From the NCBI GenBank assembly GCA_002087915.1, contig LWDP01000027.1, forward strand, positions 1-36,415: a stretch of 36,415 nt of DNA, read 5' to 3'. Of this stretch, positions 4,176-31,495 are shown in pieces. Below the pieces are notes generated by a model, which did no database searches, was not told the DNA's origin, and worked only from the letters and a program-made list of their open reading frames with translations. Position 1 is the first letter of the stretch, and every line of letters begins with the position of its first letter. Source of the DNA: Enterospora canceri (taxonomy: Eukaryota > Microsporidia > Enterocytozoonidae). The translations under genes and the position numbers were made by a program.

Positions 4176-7166
4176 ATGAAGGAAGAAAGGGAGACCAAGG
4201 ACTCGTTCGTAGACGACACCGGCGAGAACAGGATGAAGATACGGCCACAGGACGTGCCAGACGGCGTGGCCGAGAGGAAGCCGAAGCGATTCAAGGGAAT
4301 TCCGTCTCTCAGGACAATCACAAACCCATTGGACCTGTCTCCTACGAATCCAATTCTGAGAATGCTGAAAGTGCCTGGAATAATATTCTGTAGCACCATA
4401 GGAGGGTATCTGGTTGGGAAGCTGGGGGCAAGGCCGTTCTACCTGGTGCTGATAGGCCACTGCATCTACGCGTTCTACAGGAGGCGAGTCAGCCAGTACC
4501 AGCTGAGCGTCGACACGATCATGGGCCAGGCCGAGCGCCTGAAGAGCATGGGCGAGCACGAGAGCGTCGAGTGGATGAACTACGTCGTCAGGCGCGCCTG
4601 GCTGAACGTGGAGGCGGCCGTGAGCTCCGAGATCCACTCGGCCGTGAACAAGGTGCTCAAGGCGAATTGCCCGAAGTTTCTGAAGAGCATAAAGCTAAGT
4701 GAAATTACACTTGGAACGGAGCCACCTGTGGTCGAGCGAGTGAAGTTCGTGGACGAGAGGGAGGACGTGGTGGTGCTGGAGGCGTCCGTTGCCTTCGTTC
4801 CGCTCCAGGACGAGGCGGTCTTCACGGAGCCACGAAGCCACTGGAACACGTGCATCCAGCTCAGCGTGGCCCTCAACAACCTGATTTCGCTGCCGATTCT
4901 GGTCAGAAACTTCACGTTCTCGGCCACGATGCACGTCGAGCTCTCGCTCCTGAAGAAGGCGCCCTTCGTCGACAAACTCAGGTTCCAGTTCACCGAGCTG
5001 CCCGTAATCGACTTCGTCTTCATTCCGCTGAAAATATGCGACTTCATGGACCTGCCTCTGCTGAGCAGCACGCTCAAGTCGACCGCAAACAGGCAGCTGA
5101 GTGCCATTCTCGTTGCGCCCCACTTCCTCGAGGTCGATTTGAGCAAGGTCGACAAATACGCCGGAAAGAGGATTGGCGTGATCTGCGTGAGACTGGAGAG
5201 CCTGCTTTCGGCGGACGATGGCATCAAATCGGTGACGCTGTCGATCGATGGCACCGTCTTTGGCGAGACAGAGAAACACGAAGGAAGAAACCCAAAATTC
5301 AACGAGGTGTTTTATGCACTGGTAAAGGACACGAACACGACCATTTCGCTACGACACCACCAGGAGGCTGACCAATTTGGGGTGATTCACCTTCGAAACC
5401 TGAACAAGCACAGCTACTCCGAGAACATCAACATGTGCAATGGTCACGGCCAGTCCCTGCTTGGAGCCACGACTCTTTTCTACCAGGCCACTGAGTCAAA
5501 GAAGGAAAGTGCCATTTTGAGCATAAAAGTCGTAGGCGTAGACAATTTGCATAAACGAGGAATGTCGAAGAAGCTGCTCTACAACACGTACGTCATCGTG
5601 AGGGTGGTGCAGCAGAGCACGAAGAGGACGATAGCGGAGTTCGAGACGAAGCGCATCTTCGCGTCTCGCAGCCCGCAGTTCAACGAGAAGTTCGAGCACT
5701 TTGTGAGGGACTTCGACCTCTACGACCTGGCGGTGAAGGTGGTCGACGACAAGGACGATTCGCAGATCGGAGACCTCTACGTCCCCCTCTCTGACATCCA
5801 CGACTGCTCCACTGGCACCAGCAGCCGATTCAGACTCAGAGGAGTTGAAAATGGGGAAATTCTCTTTGAATTTGGAATGGAATACATCGATATCCACGAC
5901 AGTAGAAACGTGTCACTAAAAAGTGAAGATGAATCAGAGGCGATCAACAGCGAAGTTGACGAGAGCAGGGCGTCGAGGAAGGGCGTGAATGGGATGAACA
6001 TGTCGACTGAGACAGAAATAAGCAGGCACCAAACAAGGGTGGAGGAGCCTGGGGCTCCTCCGCCACCTGATCCAACTGAATTCCACCCTTTGAAGCTGCC
6101 TGAACCAGTTGGCCTCGATCTCGGAATCTACAACCTGAAGAAGCAGTCGAAGAGGCTGATCGACTTCAAATACGCCGTACAAGTCACCTCGGTCTCGTTC
6201 AGCAGCCGTGGCTCCTTCTACTTCGTCTTCGAAACCAACTCGATGGTTCAGAAGACGCAGCAGTTCACCACAGTCATCGGCAGCAGAGTCAGCTCCCTTC
6301 TTCCAATCAGCAACGAGCGAGTCGTCCTCGTCCGCCTCTTCAAAATCACCGTCAACGGCGACTCGCTCATCGGAGAGGAGTTCGTCGACATCAGCGGCAG
6401 CTGCTTCGTCTGCGTATTCGACAGAACACGCGTTGAATTCGCCATTTCGAAGACGGCCCTCGTCAGAAACCACAACAAGAAGCACAGCACCAAATTCGTC
6501 CAAATTCGATTCAACTCCTTCGACAACCTGATCGAGTCGCTCCACTTTTACGACGGAAGAAGCCTCGTTTATGCCAGTGAAATTTTCAGGCGATTTCTGT
6601 TCAAAATGGAAGGGGGGACGAATCTGAGGGTGAAGCACCTGAAAACAGTCGAAATTGGAAAGACCGAAATGGAGAACGAGGAGGTCGACTTGGGCAACTT
6701 CAGGAGGAGCAGCGGCTCGTCGGAGCTGCTGGCGCACGCCGACCTGGTCACAGTGGGCTGCGACGTCCCATTCGTGAAGGACATGCTCAGAGGCGTCCTT
6801 GAAATCCACGTCATCAACGCAACAGGGGTGGAGCCGCCTTCTTCGGCCACCGCAAACCCGTTCGTGGTCGTCTACGTCAACAAAGAGAGCGTATTCAAAA
6901 CAGCGGTGAAGAGGGGGACAAGGAGCCCGGAATTCAACGAGTCCGTTGACGTGGAGGTCGTGAAGGAGATCGACAGACTTGGACTGACCATTTATGAGCA
7001 TAACAGAATTGCAGCAAATGAGATACTGACATTCTGCGAGTTTCCACTCTACAACCTGGTTCCAGGCTACAGCAAGCACGAATTGGCAATGAAGGACGCC
7101 CACAGTGGAGCAGAGACCAAGACAGTTCTAACTGTCCTATTCAACTACAAAAGAAGTAGAAAATGA
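4176..7166 (+). CDS. TCB: Tricalbin / extended synaptotagmin-like membrane tether
   Basis: Tricalbins tether the ER to the plasma membrane and move lipids between them. The 996-residue protein has the family order: a basic cytosolic N-terminus, a hydrophobic hairpin at about residues 64-101, an SMP lipid-binding domain at about 125-325 beginning EHESVEWMNYVV, then C2 domains at about 330-430, 446-570 and 872-985. The C2 domains carry the expected NPKFNE, SPQFNE and SPEFNE strands. The region between the second and third C2 (about 600-860) may hold a further diverged C2. The first ATG in frame is 4176, 2 nt after CCCC; the longer open frame upstream uses TTG and is not a plausible start. One copy replaces the three of yeast. 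Confidence 0.88.
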   Translation: MKEERETKDSFVDDTGENRMKIRPQDVPDGVAERKPKRFKGIPSLRTITNPLDLSPTNPILRMLKVPGIIFCSTIGGYLVGKLGARPFYLVLIGHCIYAFYRRRVSQYQLSVDTIMGQAERLKSMGEHESVEWMNYVVRRAWLNVEAAVSSEIHSAVNKVLKANCPKFLKSIKLSEITLGTEPPVVERVKFVDEREDVVVLEASVAFVPLQDEAVFTEPRSHWNTCIQLSVALNNLISLPILVRNFTFSATMHVELSLLKKAPFVDKLRFQFTELPVIDFVFIPLKICDFMDLPLLSSTLKSTANRQLSAILVAPHFLEVDLSKVDKYAGKRIGVICVRLESLLSADDGIKSVTLSIDGTVFGETEKHEGRNPKFNEVFYALVKDTNTTISLRHHQEADQFGVIHLRNLNKHSYSENINMCNGHGQSLLGATTLFYQATESKKESAILSIKVVGVDNLHKRGMSKKLLYNTYVIVRVVQQSTKRTIAEFETKRIFASRSPQFNEKFEHFVRDFDLYDLAVKVVDDKDDSQIGDLYVPLSDIHDCSTGTSSRFRLRGVENGEILFEFGMEYIDIHDSRNVSLKSEDESEAINSEVDESRASRKGVNGMNMSTETEISRHQTRVEEPGAPPPPDPTEFHPLKLPEPVGLDLGIYNLKKQSKRLIDFKYAVQVTSVSFSSRGSFYFVFETNSMVQKTQQFTTVIGSRVSSLLPISNERVVLVRLFKITVNGDSLIGEEFVDISGSCFVCVFDRTRVEFAISKTALVRNHNKKHSTKFVQIRFNSFDNLIESLHFYDGRSLVYASEIFRRFLFKMEGGTNLRVKHLKTVEIGKTEMENEEVDLGNFRRSSGSSELLAHADLVTVGCDVPFVKDMLRGVLEIHVINATGVEPPSSATANPFVVVYVNKESVFKTAVKRGTRSPEFNESVDVEVVKEIDRLGLTIYEHNRIAANEILTFCEFPLYNLVPGYSKHELAMKDAHSGAETKTVLTVLFNYKRSRK

Positions 7167-8870: not shown

Positions 8871-10522
8871 GCCCAGTCCAAATCTACCAGGAGATCTACG
8901 ACCTGAACATCTACGACCAGGACGCCCTGCTTGACGTGGCACTGGCCGAAGACCGCGTCCTGAACGAGTTGGAAACGAGAATCACCACGGTCGTAGCCCA
9001 CCTGATTGGATTCCTGAAACTCCTTGAAACAGTTGAACTCCCAATCTACTGCAACCTCTTTCCTGACAAATACGCCCTGTTTATCAAACCAGCCATTTTA
9101 TCAACCAAAATGGGCGAATTAGCCAAAATGGGCGAATTGGAGGACGATGCCCTGAGACGCATCTTCCGAGGCAGCCACCAGTCAGAGACAGAGAGCACCT
9201 CACTCATCAACAGGGCTGAATTCAGCCAACTCAGGCAGTTTGCTGATCAGACCCAATCACCCAAATCAGCCAGTCTCCTCTACTCTGATCGAAATGAGAT
9301 CAATGAAAGACTTCTTCAGAAATTGGAGTATTCGAGTGGAATGAGGGTGACACTTGGCCACGAGGCAGTGAATGGGCTGATTCTGCTCTGGAAGAAGAAC
9401 AGGGATGGCTTCCGAGGCGGANCCAAAATGGGCGAATTGGAGGACGATGCCCTGAGACGCATCTTCCGAGGCAGCCACCAGTCAGAGACAGAGAGCACCT
9501 CACTCATCAACAGGGCTGAATTCAGCCAACTCAGGCAGTTTGCTGATCAGACCCAATCACCCAAATCAGCCAGTCTCCTCTACTCTGATCGAAATGAGAT
9601 CAATGAAAGACTTCTTCAGAAATTGGAGTATTCGAGTGGAATGAGGGTGACACTTGGCCACGAGGCAGTGAATGGGCTGATTCTGCTCTGGAAGAAGAAC
9701 AGGGATGGCTTCCGAGGCGGAACAAGGCGGATCATCGAGCAGATGGAAATGTTTGGGATACGTGGCCCAGTTGAGCTCGACTTGGACTGCTTCTACTGCG
9801 AGCGGGAGAGCAGCTACTCGAATGGGCTCCAATCGATCATAAACGAGGCAAAGCGGAAGTTTGTGATTCTGTTCAAGCACAGCAGCAAGCGAGACGTGCT
9901 TGGGATGCTCCATGTCCGGGGCGAAGGCAGGCAACTTGACGACGGCTGCTACTCGAGCGACTTCGACTGCTACGACGGGACTGTCCTGAGCAGCCTCAAG
10001 GCCATCAAGAAGTCCCTGGTTTCTGATTTGGAGTTTCTCGAGTCCCAGGGCGTAACAAGTCGATCTTGCGAATACGCCGAAATGCTTGAGATGATTGCGA
10101 GGGCGATTCTCAAGCCAGAAAACAGGGATCTCGAGCTGAACGACGAGACGGCTGAAATGGTCTACCAAAGGGGGGAGCTGATGAGTGGAACGGCCAGTCG
10201 CCTCGAGGGCTACTACGCCTCGTTTGTGTCGAAATGCAGCAGAAGAAGCAACAGGGTTGTTTCGCTGAAGAATGCGGTGGTGGCTGAGAGTGGCCGCCTT
10301 GGAACTGAGAATGCGACTGTCTCGATCAGGGAGGTGGAGCCGCTCCTCTTCCGTGCGACTGTTCAGATCGGTGCTGCCACCCTTGTGACTGGCTCATTCC
10401 GCCTGACTGATCTGCTTGGTGAAATTGAGGATGGAAGCAGAACACTGTCACTGGAGAACACGGTGAAACTGGATGCATTGGCACTGCTTGCTGCCATCAA
10501 CGCCAATTACGTCAGTCTGTGA
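8822..10522 (+). CDS. IQGAP/Rng2-like protein, C-terminal part (GAP-like and RasGAP-C region), containing an artefactual 300-bp duplication
   Basis: This is the continuation of the preceding frame. From 8822 the frame reads AAEISRLYHSQP... and then SPVQIYQEIYDLN, which matches the IQGAP GAP-related domain where the 'DPV-IYK' segment occurs. ELETRITTVVAHLIGFL and the ELPIYCNLF segment fit the following helices. The C-terminal third is a plausible RasGAP-C region. The first ATG in this frame is 8945, and no CCC precedes it, which argues against a separate gene. Bases 9423-9721 repeat 9123-9421 across an N, so 100 residues are counted twice. Corrected for this and the frameshift, the whole protein is about 955 residues. 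Catalytic RasGAP activity is not expected in IQGAP proteins. Confidence 0.65.
   Translation, partial: AAEISRLYHSQPLPSLSPVQIYQEIYDLNIYDQDALLDVALAEDRVLNELETRITTVVAHLIGFLKLLETVELPIYCNLFPDKYALFIKPAILSTKMGELAKMGELEDDALRRIFRGSHQSETESTSLINRAEFSQLRQFADQTQSPKSASLLYSDRNEINERLLQKLEYSSGMRVTLGHEAVNGLILLWKKNRDGFRGGXKMGELEDDALRRIFRGSHQSETESTSLINRAEFSQLRQFADQTQSPKSASLLYSDRNEINERLLQKLEYSSGMRVTLGHEAVNGLILLWKKNRDGFRGGTRRIIEQMEMFGIRGPVELDLDCFYCERESSYSNGLQSIINEAKRKFVILFKHSSKRDVLGMLHVRGEGRQLDDGCYSSDFDCYDGTVLSSLKAIKKSLVSDLEFLESQGVTSRSCEYAEMLEMIARAILKPENRDLELNDETAEMVYQRGELMSGTASRLEGYYASFVSKCSRRSNRVVSLKNAVVAESGRLGTENATVSIREVEPLLFRATVQIGAATLVTGSFRLTDLLGEIEDGSRTLSLENTVKLDALALLAAINANYVSL
9423..9721 (+). repeat. Assembly duplication 1: 299-bp copy of 9123-9421 after an N
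   Basis: Bases 9423-9721 are identical to 9123-9421, and the single N at 9422 separates the copies. The second copy flows into unique sequence on its right, as expected if two overlapping contigs were joined without merging. It lies in the IQGAP-like coding region and keeps the frame because the added length is 300 bp. Confidence 0.95.
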
Positions 10523-10651
10523 TGAGTAGTTAGTAAAAAGGAAGGGTAGTGACACTAGTAACATTAGTAGAGTAAAAGGGTAAAGAGACTAAATCAATGA
10601 CTACTATAATATTGCCACTATAATACTATCACCCTAACTACCTACTATAAN

Positions 10652-10950
10652 CGTGCGACTGTTCAGATCGGTGCTGCCACCCTTGTGACTGGCTCATTCC
10701 GCCTGACTGATCTGCTTGGTGAAATTGAGGATGGAAGCAGAACACTGTCACTGGAGAACACGGTGAAACTGGATGCATTGGCACTGCTTGCTGCCATCAA
10801 CGCCAATTACGTCAGTCTGTGATGAGTAGTTAGTAAAAAGGAAGGGTAGTGACACTAGTAACATTAGTAGAGTAAAAGGGTAAAGAGACTAAATCAATGA
10901 CTACTATAATATTGCCACTATAATACTATCACCCTAACTACCTACTATAA
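10652..10950 (+). repeat. Assembly duplication 2: 299-bp copy of 10352-10650 after an N
   Basis: Bases 10652-10950 are identical to 10352-10650 across the N at 10651. The copy carries a headless fragment of the IQGAP-like C-terminus (10652-10822, with its TGA) and its 3' flank. It should not be annotated as a gene or pseudogene. Confidence 0.95.
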
Positions 10951-11033: not shown

Positions 11034-13682
11034 ATGAGCAACAAGGTTGATTTGTCTACTGCAATTCTTGACACTGCCCTACCAAACCAGGTGGTCGTGA
11101 ATGCCAGTCTCCTGAACACCCTCAACATCGGCCAGCACGAGATCGCCCTGAACCCGGCTGACGTGACCAAGAACGCCCTCTTTGAGGCCGGCCCAGTCTT
11201 CGTGAGGGGAGCCAAACAAACAAGCGGCCTGTTCACGTGCAGGGTGGACGAGAGCCAGCAGCCCGGGACAGCGTGTCTGTCGAAGGAGGCGAGAGCGAAT
11301 CTGCGAATCAGATCGGGAGACACCGTGAAACTCTACCAGCCCGAAGACAGGCAGCTCGTGGACGCCTACCTGGTCTCACTGGCCGAAGTGGTCGAAACAA
11401 CAAGGGGCCTCTCAGGCCGAGTCTTCGAGGAGGTCGTTGCGCCCTACTTTGACTCGATTCCAGCGAGTTTCGTCTCAAAAGGAGGCGTCTACACCATCGC
11501 AAGTGGAATGCTACGAATTGAGGTGAAGGTGACTGGGATCAGGGGAGCACTGCCTGGCGAGAAGGAGGGCGAGGAGGTCGACCANGAGGCGAGAGCGAAT
11601 CTGCGAATCAGATCGGGAGACACCGTGAAACTCTACCAGCCCGAAGACAGGCAGCTCGTGGACGCCTACCTGGTCTCACTGGCCGAAGTGGTCGAAACAA
11701 CAAGGGGCCTCTCAGGCCGAGTCTTCGAGGAGGTCGTTGCGCCCTACTTTGACTCGATTCCAGCGAGTTTCGTCTCAAAAGGAGGCGTCTACACCATCGC
11801 AAGTGGAATGCTACGAATTGAGGTGAAGGTGACTGGGATCAGGGGAGCACTGCCTGGCGAGAAGGAGGGCGAGGAGGTCGACCACGGCCGTGTCTCCGAG
11901 AACACGCGAATTGACATGTCGCAGACGACGACGAAGAGCGAGATCGAGAAGGAGTTCGACGTGATCGGATTCGACGACATCGGCGGATGCAGGAAGCAGA
12001 TGGCGCAGATCCGCGAGTGCGTGGAGCTGCCTCTGAAGCACCCGGAGCTCTTTGCCCGAATTGGAACGAGGCCGCCAAGGGGCATTCTGCTCCACGGGCC
12101 GCCTGGGACTGGAAAGACGCAGATTGCAAGGGCAATTGCGAATGAAATTGGGGCAACTCTGCTGGTGATAAATGGCCCTGAAATAATGAGCAAAATGTCA
12201 GGCGAGTCGGAGTCGAACCTGAGGAAGGCGTTTGAGACTGCGGCCGAACAGGCACCTGCGATCATTTTCATGGACGAAATTGATTCGATCGCGCCAAACA
12301 GGGAGAAGAGCAGCCAGGAGAGCGAGAAGCGAATTGTGTCGCAGCTGCTGACGCTGATGGACGGGATGACGGAGAGGACGAGCGTGATCGTCCTCGGCGC
12401 CACGAACAGGCCGAACTCGATCGACCCGGCGCTCAGGCGCTACGGCCGATTCGACCGTGAAATCGAAATCGGCGTCCCTGACGAAATCGGCCGCCTTGAA
12501 ATCCTGAGCATCCACACCAAAAACATGCGACTGGCCGAGGACGTCGACCTGCTCGCGGTGGCGAGGGAGATCCACGGCTTCACTGGCTCCGACGTGGCGT
12601 CGATGTGCTCCGAGGCCGCCATTCAGCAGCTCAGGCGAAAGCTGCCCTACGTCGACCTCGATCGAGAGCGGATCCCAGCAGCGGTGCTGAAGAACCTGAG
12701 CGTGAGCAAGGACGACTTCGCCTACGCCATCAGCAACACGGACCCGTCCTCGCTTCGCGAGACGGTCGTGGAGACGCCGAACGTGAAATGGGCCGACATC
12801 GGCGGACTCGAGGGCGTCAAGCGAGAGCTGCGTGAGACCGTGATGTACCCAGTGAACCACCCCGAGAAGTTCATCAAATTCGGCCAGAACCCGAGCAAGG
12901 GCGTCCTCCTCTACGGGCCGCCTGGCTGCGGGAAGACGCTGCTTGCAAAGGCAGTGGCCACTGAGTGCAAGGCCAATTTCATTTCAATCAAAGGCCCAGA
13001 GCTTCTGAGCAAATACGTCGGTGACTCGGAGTCGAATGTGAGGGAGCTGTTTGACAAGGCCAGGGGTTCGACTCCCTGTGTCCTCTTTTTTGACGAGATC
13101 GACTCAATCGGAAAGTCGAGGATGACGGCCTCAAATGACGGTGGCACCACAGACAGGATGCTCAATCAGCTGCTGACTGAGATGGACGGAATGAACCAGA
13201 AGAAGAACGTCTTCGTCATGGGCGCGACGAACAGGCCGGGGCTGCTCGACTCGGCCCTGATGAGGCCAGGTCGACTCGACCAGCTCGTTTACATTCCACT
13301 TCCAGACCAAAAGAGCAGGCTCAGCATCCTCAGGGCGAAGTTGGGGAAGGCACCGCTGGCAGAGGACGTGGATTTGGGGGCGATAGCACGAAAGACAGAG
13401 GGATTCAGTGGAGCAGACCTCACTGAGATCTGTCAGAGGGCGGCAAAGTTCGCAATTCGAGAGAGCATCAGGCACAAGATGACGTCAGAGAAGGTCGAAG
13501 ACGATCCAGTCGAAATGCTCAGCTCAAAGTACTTTGCTCAGGCGATGAAGGACGCAAGGAAGTCAGTTACCAGGCAGGAGATTATGCAGTTTGAGGCATT
13601 TGCAAAGAGCATGAACGTGGATTTGAAGAAAGACGGGGAAGATGGAAAGGGAGGAGACGATGGAGAGGACTTGTATGGGTAG
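11034..13682 (+). CDS. CDC48: CDC48/p97 AAA+ ATPase (contains an artefactual 100-residue duplication)
   Basis: CDC48 is the hexameric unfoldase that extracts ubiquitylated proteins from membranes and complexes, for example in ERAD. An N domain is followed by two AAA modules. D1 has Walker A GPPGTGKT and Walker [10 protein letters not shown]2 has GPPGCGKT and VLFFDEID. Both have GATNRP sensor regions and Arg-finger segments. The protein ends in the conserved acidic DLYG tail. As given the frame is 882 codons, but 11586-11884 repeats 11286-11584 across an N. Without the extra copy it is 782 residues, the normal size with a single N domain. The start is ATG 11034, 1 nt after CCCC. Confidence 0.96.
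11586..11884 (+). repeat. Assembly duplication 3: 299-bp copy of 11286-11584 after an N
   Basis: Bases 11586-11884 equal 11286-11584, separated by the N at 11585. The duplicated part is the second half of the CDC48 N domain. The 300-bp step keeps the frame, so it hides as an apparent internal protein repeat. Confidence 0.95.
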
Positions 13683-16735: not shown

Positions 16736-17913
16736 CCCAGACAGTCTCTCGTATAACTGCACCAGTGATGCCACCCTAACTCCCCCTACAACCATTGCAT
16801 CCTGAATGAGAACCTCTTTCACCTCAGCAGCAGTCAGCTCAGTCAAACTGAGATAGGCAGCCGCAACACCTGAAACGTGGGGAGCGGCCATGCTCGTCCC
16901 GTCCATCGTGGCGTAGGCGCCGCCTGGCGAGGCAGAGCGGATTCCGACGCCTGGGGCGTAGACGTCGATGCAGGGGCCGCTGTTCGTGAACGGGGCCGGG
17001 AGACCGTCTCGATCAACTGCGCCTACGGTGATGGAGCATCGCGACGAGCCAGGCGTGTAGGCGCAGCTGCTCTGGCCGAAGTTGCCGTCACAAAGACCAC
17101 ATTCTTCTTGTTGCTCATTCGATTGATCAATTTGTTGATTTGGGCGTTCTTGGCCCCAGCAATGCTCAGATTCACCACAACACGAGTCAGCCCACTCCTC
17201 CTGGCCCTGTTTACGGCGTAGTGGATCCCTCGATACATCGAATACATTCTGCCCCTGCCACTTGAATCGAGGATTTTGACTCCAAGGAGATCAGCGTGTT
17301 TGGCTACGCCCGATTCAACTCCACCGATGATGCCAGCAATGTGAGTTCCATGGCCATTGTCGTCATTGTTCCCATTGGTACGGGATTTACTCCTCTTTCT
17401 CTTCTGATTCTTCCTACTATTTTTATTAGTGAAATCAGCGCAATTCTCTACTACACGGCCACTGTTCCTGAATTCAGGGTGAGTTGTATCAATTCCAGTA
17501 TCAAGAACAAAGACAGCAACTCCTCTACCGATATTCGAGAAGTACTCGAATGAGCTGGAATTGGTCAGGAAGCCAAGAGACCAGGGCGAATTCAGCCGAA
17601 CCAGAAATTGGCCAGTGAAAACGGGGCTGAATTTGGGTGGGCTGAATTTGGTCAGATTCGGCTGAATCGTCCTGCTCTTCTGGACTGATATCACGGCATC
17701 CTCCTCAATCTCAATCTCATTCCTGGATCTCAGGCGAGAGAGAGACTCAGGCGAGAGGGAGACGTTGTAGAGCATCTCATTCGTGCCAATTTCAACGGCA
17801 TCGAGGAGTCGATCGGCAGAGGTGAGGTCTCTGCTGATGTCAGTTCCATTTCTAACAAGCAGAATGTACGTGTTGGATGCAAGAAGAGTGGATGAGAGTA
17901 GAAGTAGGAGCAT
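16712..17913 (-). pseudogene. Subtilisin-like serine protease, interrupted by a frameshift
   Basis: A secreted subtilase (S8 family). A signal peptide (MLLLLLSSTLLAS) and an inhibitor-I9-like propeptide lead into the catalytic domain. Asp is seen in VFVLDTGID and His in DNGHGTHIAGI, in the frame that ends at 17023. The oxyanion Asn (GNFG), the calcium/disulfide region and the catalytic Ser in DGTSMAAPH continue in another frame (to 16712). The switch is near 17083-17090, right where VFVTA should pass into GN. All triad residues are present, so this may be an assembly error rather than a dead gene. ATG 17913 is the first in-frame ATG; unlike its neighbours it has no close CCC. Microsporidian subtilases act at the spore wall and membrane. 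Confidence 0.85.
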
Positions 17914-26781: not shown

Positions 26782-28731
26782 TCAGACCCTGGCTGATTTT
26801 GCTATCCCGTTGGTTCCATCCTCCTCCAGTGATATTTTTTGCAGAGGCAACTCATATGAAATCCCCAGACTGCTAATCTGCTTATTCATGTAGCATACGA
26901 AGTTCGATCTCAGTGACAGGTAGTGCTCATAGTTCTGGATGTTTGTCTTGTACTGCATCAGCACCTTCACGTGCAACTTGTTTGAGTCATCTATTCTCTC
27001 GTAGTTGACTAATACGTAATCTGAGTAGTAGATTGGATACTTCTTCACAAAGTGCTGTAGTCGACGCTTTAGCTCCGCAATCTTCTGTGGATCAGTCTGC
27101 GTCGACACCTGTACGACGTGATTCTCCATACACGGCCCACTACGCCTGATATTGCATATTGGCGTGGCAGATAGAACTGAATTTGGTACAAAGAAGCACG
27201 TTCCATCCCACCTGAAGAAATGGGTAGAAAAGACGTTGAGAGTCGACACGACCAGATTCTCCTGCTTCCCATCGAGTGTGACCAGAACACGGTCTCCCAC
27301 GTCATACGGGTGAATCACAAAGAGAAACATGATTGGATTCACCAGGTGCTCCTTCAGCAGCGATGCAATGATTGGAATTCCAAATATCGTAGACGCAATT
27401 CCACCCATTGAGTTTGTTAGTCCCATTCCTGATATGACTGTGCATATCGCGTATACCACGCATATCAGCACCTGTACGGCAAGGGAGACTCTCTCAATGG
27501 CAGCATGGAGCTGCCTGAGACTGTAACTGATCAGGTACTTCTCCTTCAGCGACTTCTCGATGAAGAACTCCAGGAAGTCCCTGGTGATCTCGTCGCTCTT
27601 CCTGACGCCCATCTGCTCGAAGAATGCGTTGAAGACGGCCTGTCTCTTGAAGACGAAGCCGAAGTCGCCCATCTTCCTCATCTGCTTCCTCTTCAGACTC
27701 CTGTGCAAGGCGGCCGCCTTTGAATGGGCCTTTTCCTTGAGCCTGGCCAGGATGCTCAGAATCGACGCGTCTGTCCGCCTGAATGTCCGACAGAGGGTGC
27801 TGAACTCGTTCAGTAGCGTGAATTTGGCACCAAATGTCATTGGCGCCCTGCTGCTCCCCTGAAACTGCTTCTCGAAGATGTAGGTGGCCAGCTTCCTTGG
27901 AGCCCTCTGCTTCCTCCTTGCCACGAATATCTGGCTGTCATCGACCCAGTCTTCGTCTGCCTCCTCGAAGTCGACTGGCCTCGTCTCGTTCCTGAACTCC
28001 GACACGCAGGCCATCAGTGTCACAAACAAGTCCATGAGTATCGCCCTTCTGATTCTCTTGAGATAGGTCGAGTAGTTGAAGCCAAAGACGGTCTTCTGAG
28101 TCAGACACCGCTGTAGGGCAAAGAAGCATAAGAAGAGAATTGTCATAGGAAGCACCACCCTCACCCTCAGCTCAAAGAGGTAGGGATTGGGGATGTAGAA
28201 GTCGCCTATTGTAAGCATGTTGCAGACAAGGAGGCCCCCTAGGGCACAGCCAAGTGAGATGTGGTAGGCGCAGTTGTAGGCGTAGAACATGACTGAGCTC
28301 GTAGAGGAGGCAGATCCCCTGAGAATGCGGAAGGTGACTGTCTCAATGGCGTAGCCAAGGACGACTGCGACCATGAGGAGGGCGGCGCCGCTTAGGAGGA
28401 AGAAGCCAAGTGGAACCTGCTTCAGTGTCTTCTCCTGGCTCACGACACTCACGTCGATGTGCATCGTAAAGGCAGAGACGGCAGCGAGGCAGAGGGCAAG
28501 GAGAGTGCACAGGAACTTCCTGGTGCAGAAGGCCTCCTTGAGCACCTCCGAAATCGTGGTCTCCTGGTACTCGCCACGGACTGCCTCCTCCTCCCTCTCC
28601 TGCGTCGAGGAGACAGCGAGGTTGTCTCGCGATTCAGACGCACTGGATGTCTCATCCGTCACCACTGATTGCTCCTGGCTGCAGCTTTCACTTGTTTCGT
28701 GGTCTGTGAAATCAGATGGATTTTGAGCCAT
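26782..28731 (-). CDS. MscS-family mechanosensitive ion channel (fungal Msy type)
   Basis: Msy-type channels sit in the ER or plasma membrane and respond to osmotic stress. The 649-residue protein has an acidic, Ser-rich N-terminus (1-60), four membrane segments between about residues 72 and 210, and a cytosolic charged region. Two further membrane segments come near 420-445 and 450-490. The last is the pore helix, followed by the MscS beta-domain motif HPYDVGDRVLV. This long N-terminal bundle is typical of the eukaryotic MSY group, not of the short bacterial-type MscS1 that microsporidia also carry. ATG 28731 lies 6 nt after CCCC. It is convergent with the GCP gene. Confidence 0.88.
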   Translation of the reverse strand: MAQNPSDFTDHETSESCSQEQSVVTDETSSASESRDNLAVSSTQEREEEAVRGEYQETTISEVLKEAFCTRKFLCTLLALCLAAVSAFTMHIDVSVVSQEKTLKQVPLGFFLLSGAALLMVAVVLGYAIETVTFRILRGSASSTSSVMFYAYNCAYHISLGCALGGLLVCNMLTIGDFYIPNPYLFELRVRVVLPMTILFLCFFALQRCLTQKTVFGFNYSTYLKRIRRAILMDLFVTLMACVSEFRNETRPVDFEEADEDWVDDSQIFVARRKQRAPRKLATYIFEKQFQGSSRAPMTFGAKFTLLNEFSTLCRTFRRTDASILSILARLKEKAHSKAAALHRSLKRKQMRKMGDFGFVFKRQAVFNAFFEQMGVRKSDEITRDFLEFFIEKSLKEKYLISYSLRQLHAAIERVSLAVQVLICVVYAICTVISGMGLTNSMGGIASTIFGIPIIASLLKEHLVNPIMFLFVIHPYDVGDRVLVTLDGKQENLVVSTLNVFSTHFFRWDGTCFFVPNSVLSATPICNIRRSGPCMENHVVQVSTQTDPQKIAELKRRLQHFVKKYPIYYSDYVLVNYERIDDSNKLHVKVLMQYKTNIQNYEHYLSLRSNFVCYMNKQISSLGISYELPLQKISLEEDGTNGIAKSARV

Positions 28732-28827
28732 TTATTAAGGGGATTAAAAGTCAAGTTGTGGTAGTGGTAGATGATTAGAGAGAGGCATTTCAGATGGGAC
28801 ACGTGATGAGTTCAAGTGGGTGTATCT

Positions 28828-28907: not shown

Positions 28908-30038
28908 ATGAACAAAACAAATTACTCAACCAATTCAAGCACTGAATCAATCTACTCAGACACAATCACAGTATACACGCCAAAGGGAGTCAGTGCAATG
29001 AGGGTGGAGATCACAAGGCATCCAGCACAGGTTGAGGTGCGTCTGGTCGAGAAGAGCAACCTCTTTACTGTCTACCTCTGTACTATCACCCATGGTGACT
29101 TCTACCTTTATAAGAAGGAGCAAGACATTCTGGTTGGATACGACAGGTTTCTGCCTGTGTTGGTGCGACTGTTCTACGGCGTAGCAAGGGGCGGAGGCGC
29201 CTTGAGGGCCGTGGTAGCAGAAGAAGGAGAAAAGGGATTTGTTCTACGATTTGTGGAACAGGGTGACTTCAGAAACGTGGAGAAGTTGACACTTAAGTTT
29301 AATAAGCCAGAAGAGCACCAATATAGGGCGTATTTGGGCAGTTTGTTACGGAAGATGGAGGAAGACAATATTAGACTTATTAAGGAGAAGAAGCAGGTTC
29401 AGGAGCAGAGGGAGCATGAAGAACGAGGAAGAAGGGAGAAAGAAGCGTATTTGGATGAGGAGAATTCGGAGATGAAGAAGAGACTGGAAGTTGTAGGAGG
29501 AGAGTTGGCAGCATTGGAGAGGAAGTACGAGGAGGAACAGGAGGAGTTTGGTAGGGCACGAGCACAGAGAGGAGAACAGGAGAGGGAGAATGCACAGTTG
29601 CGATTTGAGTTGGAGCAGTTTAAGAAGGGAAACTACAAGGAAAGGGCACAGGAGTTGGAAGAGGAGAATGAGAAGAAGATGGAGAAGATACGCGAATTGG
29701 AGGAAGAGGCAAGTGGGCTGAAGGATGAGAATAGGCGACTGAATAAGACAAATAGGGAGATAGCAGAGAAGATGGAGAAGGAGTTTGGGACGAAGGTCGA
29801 TGTGGCAGACATAAAGAACAAGGTGGTTCACATGGAGACGAAGATGAGGGGACTGAGAAACGAGTTGAAGGAGAAGAAGGAGCGGATTGTGGTGTTGGTG
29901 ACAGAGAAGAAGGCACTTGCAAAGCAGCTTGACAGTGCCCAGAATGTCTACAACCATTTTTATGGGAAGAAGGTCGATGAGGATGAGAAGAAGGACATGG
30001 GAAACATCTCATTTGAGCCAGAGAATCCACCAAGTTAG
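28908..30038 (+). CDS. SAS6: SAS-6-like centriole/MTOC scaffold protein
   Basis: SAS-6 forms the ninefold cartwheel of centrioles through head-to-head contacts of its N-terminal domain and a dimeric coiled coil. The 376-residue protein has this plan: an N-terminal globular domain at about residues 17-148 and a long, highly charged coiled coil at about 148-350. Key segments are LCTITHGDFYLYKKEQDILVGYDRFLPVL (compare 'L-I-EEDF--LK-EQ-LLVDF--FP'), and FVLRFVEQGDFRNVEKLTLKF, which fits the PISA motif. Phe121 sits where the head-to-head phenylalanine is expected. ATG 28908 lies 2 nt after CCCC. Other XRCC4-fold proteins (XLF, CCDC61) fit less well. It is unexpected because microsporidia lack centrioles. 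Confidence 0.75.
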   Translation: MNKTNYSTNSSTESIYSDTITVYTPKGVSAMRVEITRHPAQVEVRLVEKSNLFTVYLCTITHGDFYLYKKEQDILVGYDRFLPVLVRLFYGVARGGGALRAVVAEEGEKGFVLRFVEQGDFRNVEKLTLKFNKPEEHQYRAYLGSLLRKMEEDNIRLIKEKKQVQEQREHEERGRREKEAYLDEENSEMKKRLEVVGGELAALERKYEEEQEEFGRARAQRGEQERENAQLRFELEQFKKGNYKERAQELEEENEKKMEKIRELEEEASGLKDENRRLNKTNREIAEKMEKEFGTKVDVADIKNKVVHMETKMRGLRNELKEKKERIVVLVTEKKALAKQLDSAQNVYNHFYGKKVDEDEKKDMGNISFEPENPPS

Positions 30039-30148
30039 TTTGGTGATGAGAGTAGGCTGGAACAGTCACTAATTTATGATAAACTGTCTATGGAAGAATT
30101 CGCCTATAAAATTGGTTGGTTTTATGAATAGGAAATATGACCCCGGTA

Positions 30149-31495
30149 ATGAGGATACTCCTTGAAAAAATACACTTTAAAGAGAAAATGACACAGAAAG
30201 TGGTGGTGAGGATTGAGGATGATGGTGAAAGAAGGAGTGTTGTGATACTACGAGACGATAAAGTGGCCTGTTTAACTCTGAATTTGGTGGGGGCTGTTTT
30301 GATCGTGAAAATAGACAATGGGCCTGAAATGAATTTGGGGTGTTCTGAGGCAGAATACGAAGAAGTTGAATTTGAATATAGAATGGTGGAAGACAACTAC
30401 GAAAGAATGGGGAATGTATTTGGAGTGGAGGTTGATGAGAGCATGGAACTGGATCGAATGAACTACAGGGGTGATGTGGAGGTATTGCTGAGGAACTTGG
30501 TTTGTAAAAGTACAGGAAAGAGAGTAGAGAGACACGAAATAAGAAGGAGGAGAATGTTGGATGATTCGATGAAGTTGTTTTTGGGGGATACGGTGGATTT
30601 TGGATCATTTAGATTGGAATTTAGTGGAGAGATTGGTCAGGACAATAAGGGTGTGAAAAGAGACTGGTTTTATAGCATAAATGAAGAAATAAGGGAGTCA
30701 GGGCACTTGGAATGGATAAATGGAGTAATGTGTGATATTAGGAGGAATGAAGAGGAGGTATTTCTGTATTGGTATGACCAGAATACAAGTGGTTCAATGT
30801 TGGATGAAATTAGGAAGAGTGGAAGTGAGAAAGAGAAGTTTCTGGTGTTCATTGGGCTGTTTATGGGTCTATCACTGGTTTACGGGGAGCCATTGCACGT
30901 GAATTGGACACTTGGATTCTATGAAAATCTGTTGGGTCGAAGGTACTCGGAGAAGACGTTACAAGACGGGATGTTAAGAAGAAACATTGAACAGGAGTTG
31001 AATAAGGATGAAGTTATTGTGGAATACTTTGATTGTGCTGAATACGATGCAATTCGATTTGGATTTATGCATGTAACGAACAAATTCAGGTGCTACGACT
31101 GTCAAGGAAAAGAATGGTGCAATTTACACTCTCTACTTGTCAAAAGAGTAGAATGTAGACACCTGTTCTATTATTTCATGAAAAGAGAGGTCTACAACAA
31201 CGAAGTTCTGAGGATGCTTGAATTCTTTAGGGTTAGAGAGCAGGAAAAGGGTTGGCTAACTAAAATCATAGGGGAGTTAAGTGAGGACGAATTGATCGCA
31301 TTTGTGCAGTTTGCTGTAGGTGGATCGTACATCAAAGACACTTTATGCGTAGAACAGATCAAAAGAAGGAACATTCTCATTTCTGCTTCAACATGTTCTG
31401 ATATACTGTATGTTGGGATGTATGACAGTAAGGACGTGATGAAACAGAAGCTGATGACTTCTGTCTTTGAGTGTTGTGGATTTCACCTGATGTAA
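30149..31495 (+). CDS. Compact HECT-type E3 ubiquitin ligase
   Basis: HECT ligases take ubiquitin from an E2 on a cysteine and pass it to the substrate. The 448-residue protein is mostly the HECT domain (about 110-448). Visible landmarks are FSGEIGQDNKGVKRDWFY, LFMGLSLVYGEPLHVNW, LIAFVQFAVGG and the active-site segment ISASTCSDILYVGMY with Cys416, followed by KLMTSVFECCGFHLM at the extreme end. About 100 N-terminal residues hold no recognisable substrate-binding domain. The start is taken at ATG 30149, 3 nt after CCCC; an in-frame ATG at 30137 (four residues more) overlaps that CCCC and is less likely. Confidence 0.9.
   Translation: MRILLEKIHFKEKMTQKVVVRIEDDGERRSVVILRDDKVACLTLNLVGAVLIVKIDNGPEMNLGCSEAEYEEVEFEYRMVEDNYERMGNVFGVEVDESMELDRMNYRGDVEVLLRNLVCKSTGKRVERHEIRRRRMLDDSMKLFLGDTVDFGSFRLEFSGEIGQDNKGVKRDWFYSINEEIRESGHLEWINGVMCDIRRNEEEVFLYWYDQNTSGSMLDEIRKSGSEKEKFLVFIGLFMGLSLVYGEPLHVNWTLGFYENLLGRRYSEKTLQDGMLRRNIEQELNKDEVIVEYFDCAEYDAIRFGFMHVTNKFRCYDCQGKEWCNLHSLLVKRVECRHLFYYFMKREVYNNEVLRMLEFFRVREQEKGWLTKIIGELSEDELIAFVQFAVGGSYIKDTLCVEQIKRRNILISASTCSDILYVGMYDSKDVMKQKLMTSVFECCGFHLM

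Follow-up and report, generated by a model that had tools for sequence, protein, structure and literature searches.

A SAS-6 family gene in the microsporidian Enterospora canceri and its possible re-use, with a SAS-4-like protein, at the spindle plaque

The window analysed here is a stretch of 36,415 nucleotides, contig LWDP01000027.1 of the GenBank assembly GCA_002087915.1 of the microsporidian Enterospora canceri, and it contains, at positions 28908..30038 of the forward (+) strand, a complete coding sequence for a SAS-6 protein of 376 amino acids (P0001), recognized from its open reading frame, its match to the Pfam family SAS-6_N, and its relatives. SAS-6 seeds centrioles in other organisms, and microsporidia are not known to build centrioles or cilia. 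The initial annotation of this DNA, made from the sequence alone, had placed this reading frame exactly. Translation from an in-frame ATG at 28794 would lengthen the product by 38 residues, most of them of low complexity; as residue E13 of the product that starts at 28908 aligns with the third residue of the relatives (18 of 18), the stretch 5' of 28908 is not conserved. The gene is the single SAS-6 match across the assembly.

The coding sequence comprises a head domain with an XRCC4-like fold (residues 11–135; 28938..29312, +), which is followed by a predicted long helix or coiled coil (residues 136–352; 29313..29963, +). The SAS-6_N family (PF16531) matches residues 25–131 with 65.9 bits and E=5.2e-18, against a curated cut-off of 25, and nine further Pfam families, listed to E=10, all lie below their own cut-offs. 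XRCC4 and XLF have Pfam families of their own, and neither is found among the ten families listed for the protein to E=10. SAS-6_N is also matched by all six of the relatives scanned, and each of the 19 family rows has PF16531 as its precomputed domain. Given a score of this size and the recovery of the same family in the relatives, the match is not due to chance.

The solved structures lead to the same family. In a phmmer search, fly Sas-6 ranks first (5al7, E 3.3e-4), followed by the Chlamydomonas and Leishmania SAS-6, while coiled-coil and other proteins, with E of at least 0.07, stand lower among the 31 rows. A profile made from the 19 family rows matches 21 solved SAS-6 chain sequences (E 2.2e-9 to 6.1e-5). 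The fold comparison places the head with SAS-6, nearer to it than to XRCC4, PAXX, or CCDC61, and the head does not group with the last of these; XLF appears in this comparison only within an XRCC4/XLF co-crystal, in the lower rows. The earlier judgement by eye, that the head fits SAS-6 better than the related families, is thus upheld for XRCC4 and CCDC61, and PAXX is likewise more distant. The contrary reading, in which the shared fold would mark the head as a member of one of these other families (XRCC4, XLF, PAXX, or CCDC61), is largely refuted in this analysis and must be considered very improbable, and the gene is almost certainly a member of the SAS-6 family that has been kept in microsporidia.

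The 19 aligned proteins, the query included, are the complete union of two homologue searches, the first of which returned 7 rows (with the query) from 7994 candidates scored, and was probably crowded by coiled-coil words, while the second, in which the query was the head region of P0002, returned 16 rows from 170 candidates. The 18 relatives are 358–371 amino acids long, and share 30–47% identity with the Enterospora protein. Four of these 18 carry microsporidian names (P0005, P0017, P0019, and P0020), the species being Nucleospora cyclopteri (named Sas-6), Enteropsectra breve (spindle assembly abnormal protein 6), Glugoides intestinalis (hypothetical protein), and Nosema bombycis ("Laminin subunit beta-4"). 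The last of these names, given to P0020 of Nosema bombycis CQ1, looks wrong, given the full-length SAS-6 alignment of the protein and its precomputed PF16531 domain; it belongs to the same family and phylum as the Enterospora SAS-6, with 30% identity over the alignment. In the tree of the 19 family rows, which has no outgroup SAS-6 or SAS6L, the end branch of the Enterospora protein, at 1.08 changes per column, is the longest of all, the median being 0.24; its composition is also unusual, so its place in this tree is unsure.

The retention of SAS-6 in microsporidia is already published, and the SAS-6 gene alone is not new, contrary to what had been supposed in the initial annotation. The Encephalitozoon cuniculi SAS-6 is given as previously described in PMC3697468, a paper that is by its title a study of the localisation of the Nosema bombycis SAS-6 (Dai et al. 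2019) is cited in PMC9272817, and two database entries, those of Nucleospora cyclopteri and Enteropsectra breve, are already named SAS-6. As far as could be seen, the Encephalitozoon cuniculi and Nosema bombycis proteins differ from that of Enterospora by species only. Unlike the SAS-6 of animals, Chlamydomonas (Bld12p), and Leishmania, the Enterospora protein comes from an organism whose cells are not known to contain centrioles.

That the DNA is microsporidian, as first proposed, is confirmed by a full-length match of the small-subunit ribosomal RNA to the model SSU_rRNA_microsporidia (positions 1–1311, 1210.7 bits), together with the identity of a protein of the same assembly (P0008) to ECANGB1_589 of Enterospora canceri, of the family Enterocytozoonidae. 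The ribosomal RNA model also matches in nine of the 14 control genomes, and this match proves little when taken alone. Contamination from a host or a bacterium was considered and rejected on the ribosomal RNA match, the identity of P0008, and the microsporidian names of four of the 18 relatives. The assembly comprises 2.24 Mb in 75 contigs.

The residue at which the heads of SAS-6 meet is recognizable in the Enterospora protein. The segment FVLRFVEQGDFRNVEKLTLKF corresponds to residues 111–131, and represents the C-terminal (last) beta-hairpin of the head, which bears the dimer phenylalanine. The number given to Phe121 (codon at 29268..29270, +) is correct, and a phenylalanine occupies this position in all 19 family members, with F115, E117, N123, and L127 also invariant nearby (19/19). 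The profile alignment sets F121 on a residue that is phenylalanine in the zebrafish SAS-6 2y3v and aspartate in 2y3w, a change reportedly made to break the head-to-head contact. The contact residue is F131 in zebrafish, F145 in Chlamydomonas, and F143 in the fly, and the titles of the structures name the SAS-6 variants F257E, F143D, and F131E. By sequence alignment, then, the Enterospora head has a hydrophobic residue, F121, at the head-to-head contact, where the initial annotation had expected it, aligned with zebrafish F131.

The same annotation had described this segment as a PISA-type motif, and while the segment is indeed present at residues 111–131, the label appears to be misplaced, as the PISA motif of the family reportedly sits further towards the N-terminus (Leidel et al. 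2005). Its span should lie inside the matched Pfam stretch, residues 25–131. The length of the motif is given as approximately 50 amino acids in PMC3697468.

The conservation of the contact bears on the view that the protein is a relic, that is, a coiled-coil scaffold with the SAS-6 fold that forms only dimers and has lost the head-to-head oligomers. The fast evolution of the Enterospora copy speaks in favour of this view, as does the failure to find STIL_N or POLO_box in the assembly, which is a weak negative, although the invariance of Phe121, F115, E117, N123, and L127 in 19 of 19 rows is what would be expected if the contact were in use, and the loss of oligomers seems unlikely.

The long coiled coil that had been proposed to follow the head is borne out by the AlphaFold2 model and the sequence pattern. 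The model predicts helix at residues 136–293 and 299–352, approximately 215 residues in all, which would measure some 31–32 nm if straight (at 0.15 nm per residue). This predicted tail is relevant to the possibility that SAS-6 has been re-used in the invasion apparatus (the polar tube, anchoring disc, or polaroplast), in the manner of the paralogue SAS6L, which is linked to the conoid of Toxoplasma. The head of SAS6L and the Toxoplasma conoid fibre has the same fold, but the SAS6L proteins are without a coiled-coil tail, according to PMC3697468, in contrast with the predicted helical tail of the Enterospora SAS-6. In addition, no conoid chain is listed by sequence for either P0001 or the 19-row profile against the solved structures, and SAS-6 is listed by both. 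A role in invasion is thus quite unlikely.

Conservation within the microsporidian family extends to the C-terminus, given that the mean pairwise identity across the 19 rows is 0.65 in residues 330–352, in comparison with 0.42 in the coil (and 0.55 in the head). A motif around AQNVYNHFY (residues 339–356; 29922..29975, +) includes L341, Q345, and Y348, which are invariant, and K339, A344, N346, V347, H350, and F351, which are found in at least 90% of the rows; to judge from this conservation, it is perhaps a binding site. It may set the 19-row family apart from other SAS-6, of which the PDB chains compared are N-terminal fragments. The motif, together with a PE(S/N)P-type tail, extends over 29922–30035 and is conserved in most of the rows, with the tail missing in P0006 and P0015 deviating from AQNVYNHFY, and the two may possibly represent a candidate site of phosphorylation or binding.

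A second protein that may be relevant to the role of SAS-6 is encoded outside the window. The 141-residue P0008 (contig C11, approximately 10435–10860, +; L003:1204–1629) is most probably a TCP-domain (Tcp10_C) protein of the SAS-4/CPAP type. Tcp10_C has one match in the assembly, below the cut-off (21.4 bits, E 6.6e-4), and none in the 14 control genomes. A homologue search with P0008 returned 11 rows, itself included, one of them from Ecytonucleospora hepatopenaei, and all 11 are matched by Tcp10_C, the best at 1e-7. The first four PDB matches of the profile of this family are Sas-4 or CPAP (E 0.01–0.036), and the member P0026 alone finds fly Sas-4 with E 3.9e-4.

The structural model of P0008 (pLDDT 86.4) has two helices (residues 4–54) and a nine-strand sheet (57–138), the open single-layer beta-sheet of the SAS-4/CPAP TCP domain (G-box), and in a Foldseek search with it, rows 1–6 and 8–11 are Sas-4 or CPAP TCP domains. 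VIA lists five CPAP rows at 10.9–11.6, with a best root-mean-square deviation of 2.0 over 79 residues. The hidden Markov model alignment and the VIA alignment of this repetitive sheet seem to be offset by about one strand, so the match to the CPAP microcephaly site is approximate at the level of residues. The chain of the CPAP mutant E1021V scores 17.0 bits, in comparison with 20.1 for the wild type, which indicates only that the mutated site lies within the alignment, at a position of similar sequence. The N-terminal part of SAS-4/CPAP binds tubulin, and this region was not found in P0008, which has only a short helical N-terminus beside its sheet of approximately 82 residues; as 141 amino acids leave no room for the tubulin-binding part, P0008 is referred to here as a SAS-4-like TCP protein rather than as SAS-4. 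No report of a microsporidian SAS-4/CPAP or TCP protein was found among titles and the beginnings of abstracts, in which subscription journals are thinly covered. The presence of both the SAS-6 and TCP genes was established in Enterospora canceri only.

Three tubulins were matched in the assembly, with beta and alpha recognized by inspection and gamma by a PDB search (E 3.9e-65). The gamma-tubulin gene (L006, contig C23) has one TAA inside the match region, which may reflect an intron, a start further in, or an error. The presence of both SAS-6 and a SAS-4-like TCP protein might suggest that centrioles or flagella are hidden at some stage of the life cycle, which is barely conceivable, given that the tubulin matches are limited to alpha, beta, and gamma and no dynein heavy chain was found, in an assembly that may be incomplete. 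The one Dynein_heavy match, below the cut-off, lies inside a multi-AAA open reading frame that resembles midasin by inspection.

The re-use of SAS-6 at the spindle plaque is plausible. We infer that the protein would dimerise through its long coiled coil, and that its heads would meet via Phe121 to form head-to-head oligomers. In these acentriolar cells, the spindle plaque, which is set in the nuclear envelope, would most likely be where the oligomers act as a scaffold, and where gamma-tubulin and the miniature TCP protein may join them. Support for this location is indirect: spindle plaques are present in other microsporidia, including Nucleospora, and fly SAS-6 and SAS-4, together with Bld10, went to the spindle pole body of yeast in Ito et al. 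2019 (PMC6559791). A SAS-6 oligomer scaffold with gamma-tubulin and the TCP protein at the plaque is the location and mechanism towards which we lean, with some reserve. The SAS-6 and SAS-4-like pair may have been re-used for a simpler spindle pole. It is also suggested, tentatively and with more doubt than assent, that microsporidia, without centrioles or cilia, keep a two-piece miniature of centriole assembly (head-to-head SAS-6 polymers joined by the TCP protein, without detectable STIL or PLK4), and that it would be the structural core of the plaque, which would then be a reduced centriole, and not a separately evolved spindle pole body of the yeast type.

A number of observations weigh against the proposed scaffold. 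Searches with STIL_N, POLO_box, PACT_coil_coil, and GCP_C found no match, which raises the possibility that SAS-6 lacks its usual recruiters here, but the assembly may be incomplete and a eukaryotic positive control was lacking for these searches. The negatives do not show absence, however, because almost nothing matched in the control genomes either (PACT, GCP_C, and STIL_N in 0 of 14, POLO_box in one, below the cut-off), and they look weak, as GCP_C was expected beside gamma-tubulin and yet went unmatched. Cnn_1N has three matches in the assembly and also occurs in three control genomes, none of them above the cut-off. The long branch of the Enterospora SAS-6 could reflect relaxed constraint. 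The TCP protein scores 20 bits against a Pfam cut-off of 36, no Foldseek match to its model reaches E 0.001, and in VIA the single-layer sheets of a phage spike (9.8) and OspA (9.7) are level with fly Sas-4 (9.7 and 9.5), so only the CPAP rows stand above unrelated sheets.

A SAS-6 in a microsporidian without centrioles is a natural counterpart of the experiment reported in Ito et al. 2019. If the scaffold exists, the SAS-6/SAS-4-like module has a role at the spindle pole that is separable from the making of centrioles, and the pair provides a minimal two-protein system for testing. The TCP-domain protein is an apparently new part, which sharpens the question and is worth following.

In the remainder of the window, SAS-6 is adjoined by a mechanosensitive channel of the MscS type (26782–28731, −; MS_channel_2nd, E 8.3e-6), and a HECT ubiquitin ligase is found at 30137–31495 (+), its best stretch being confined to the final third of the profile (210–305 of 306). 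Four single-N positions (9422, 10651, 11585, and 35079) have an exact 299-bp direct repeat on each flank, and look like overlapping contig ends joined through N, so the internal duplications in the open reading frames at 9110–10522 and 11034–13682 (Cdc48-like) are probably artificial. The match of a subtilase reading frame (17023–17913, −) stops at about the midpoint of the Peptidase_S8 profile (1–151 of 288), and a tricalbin-like protein with SMP and C2 domains is encoded at 4176–7166 (+), in a very compact genome.
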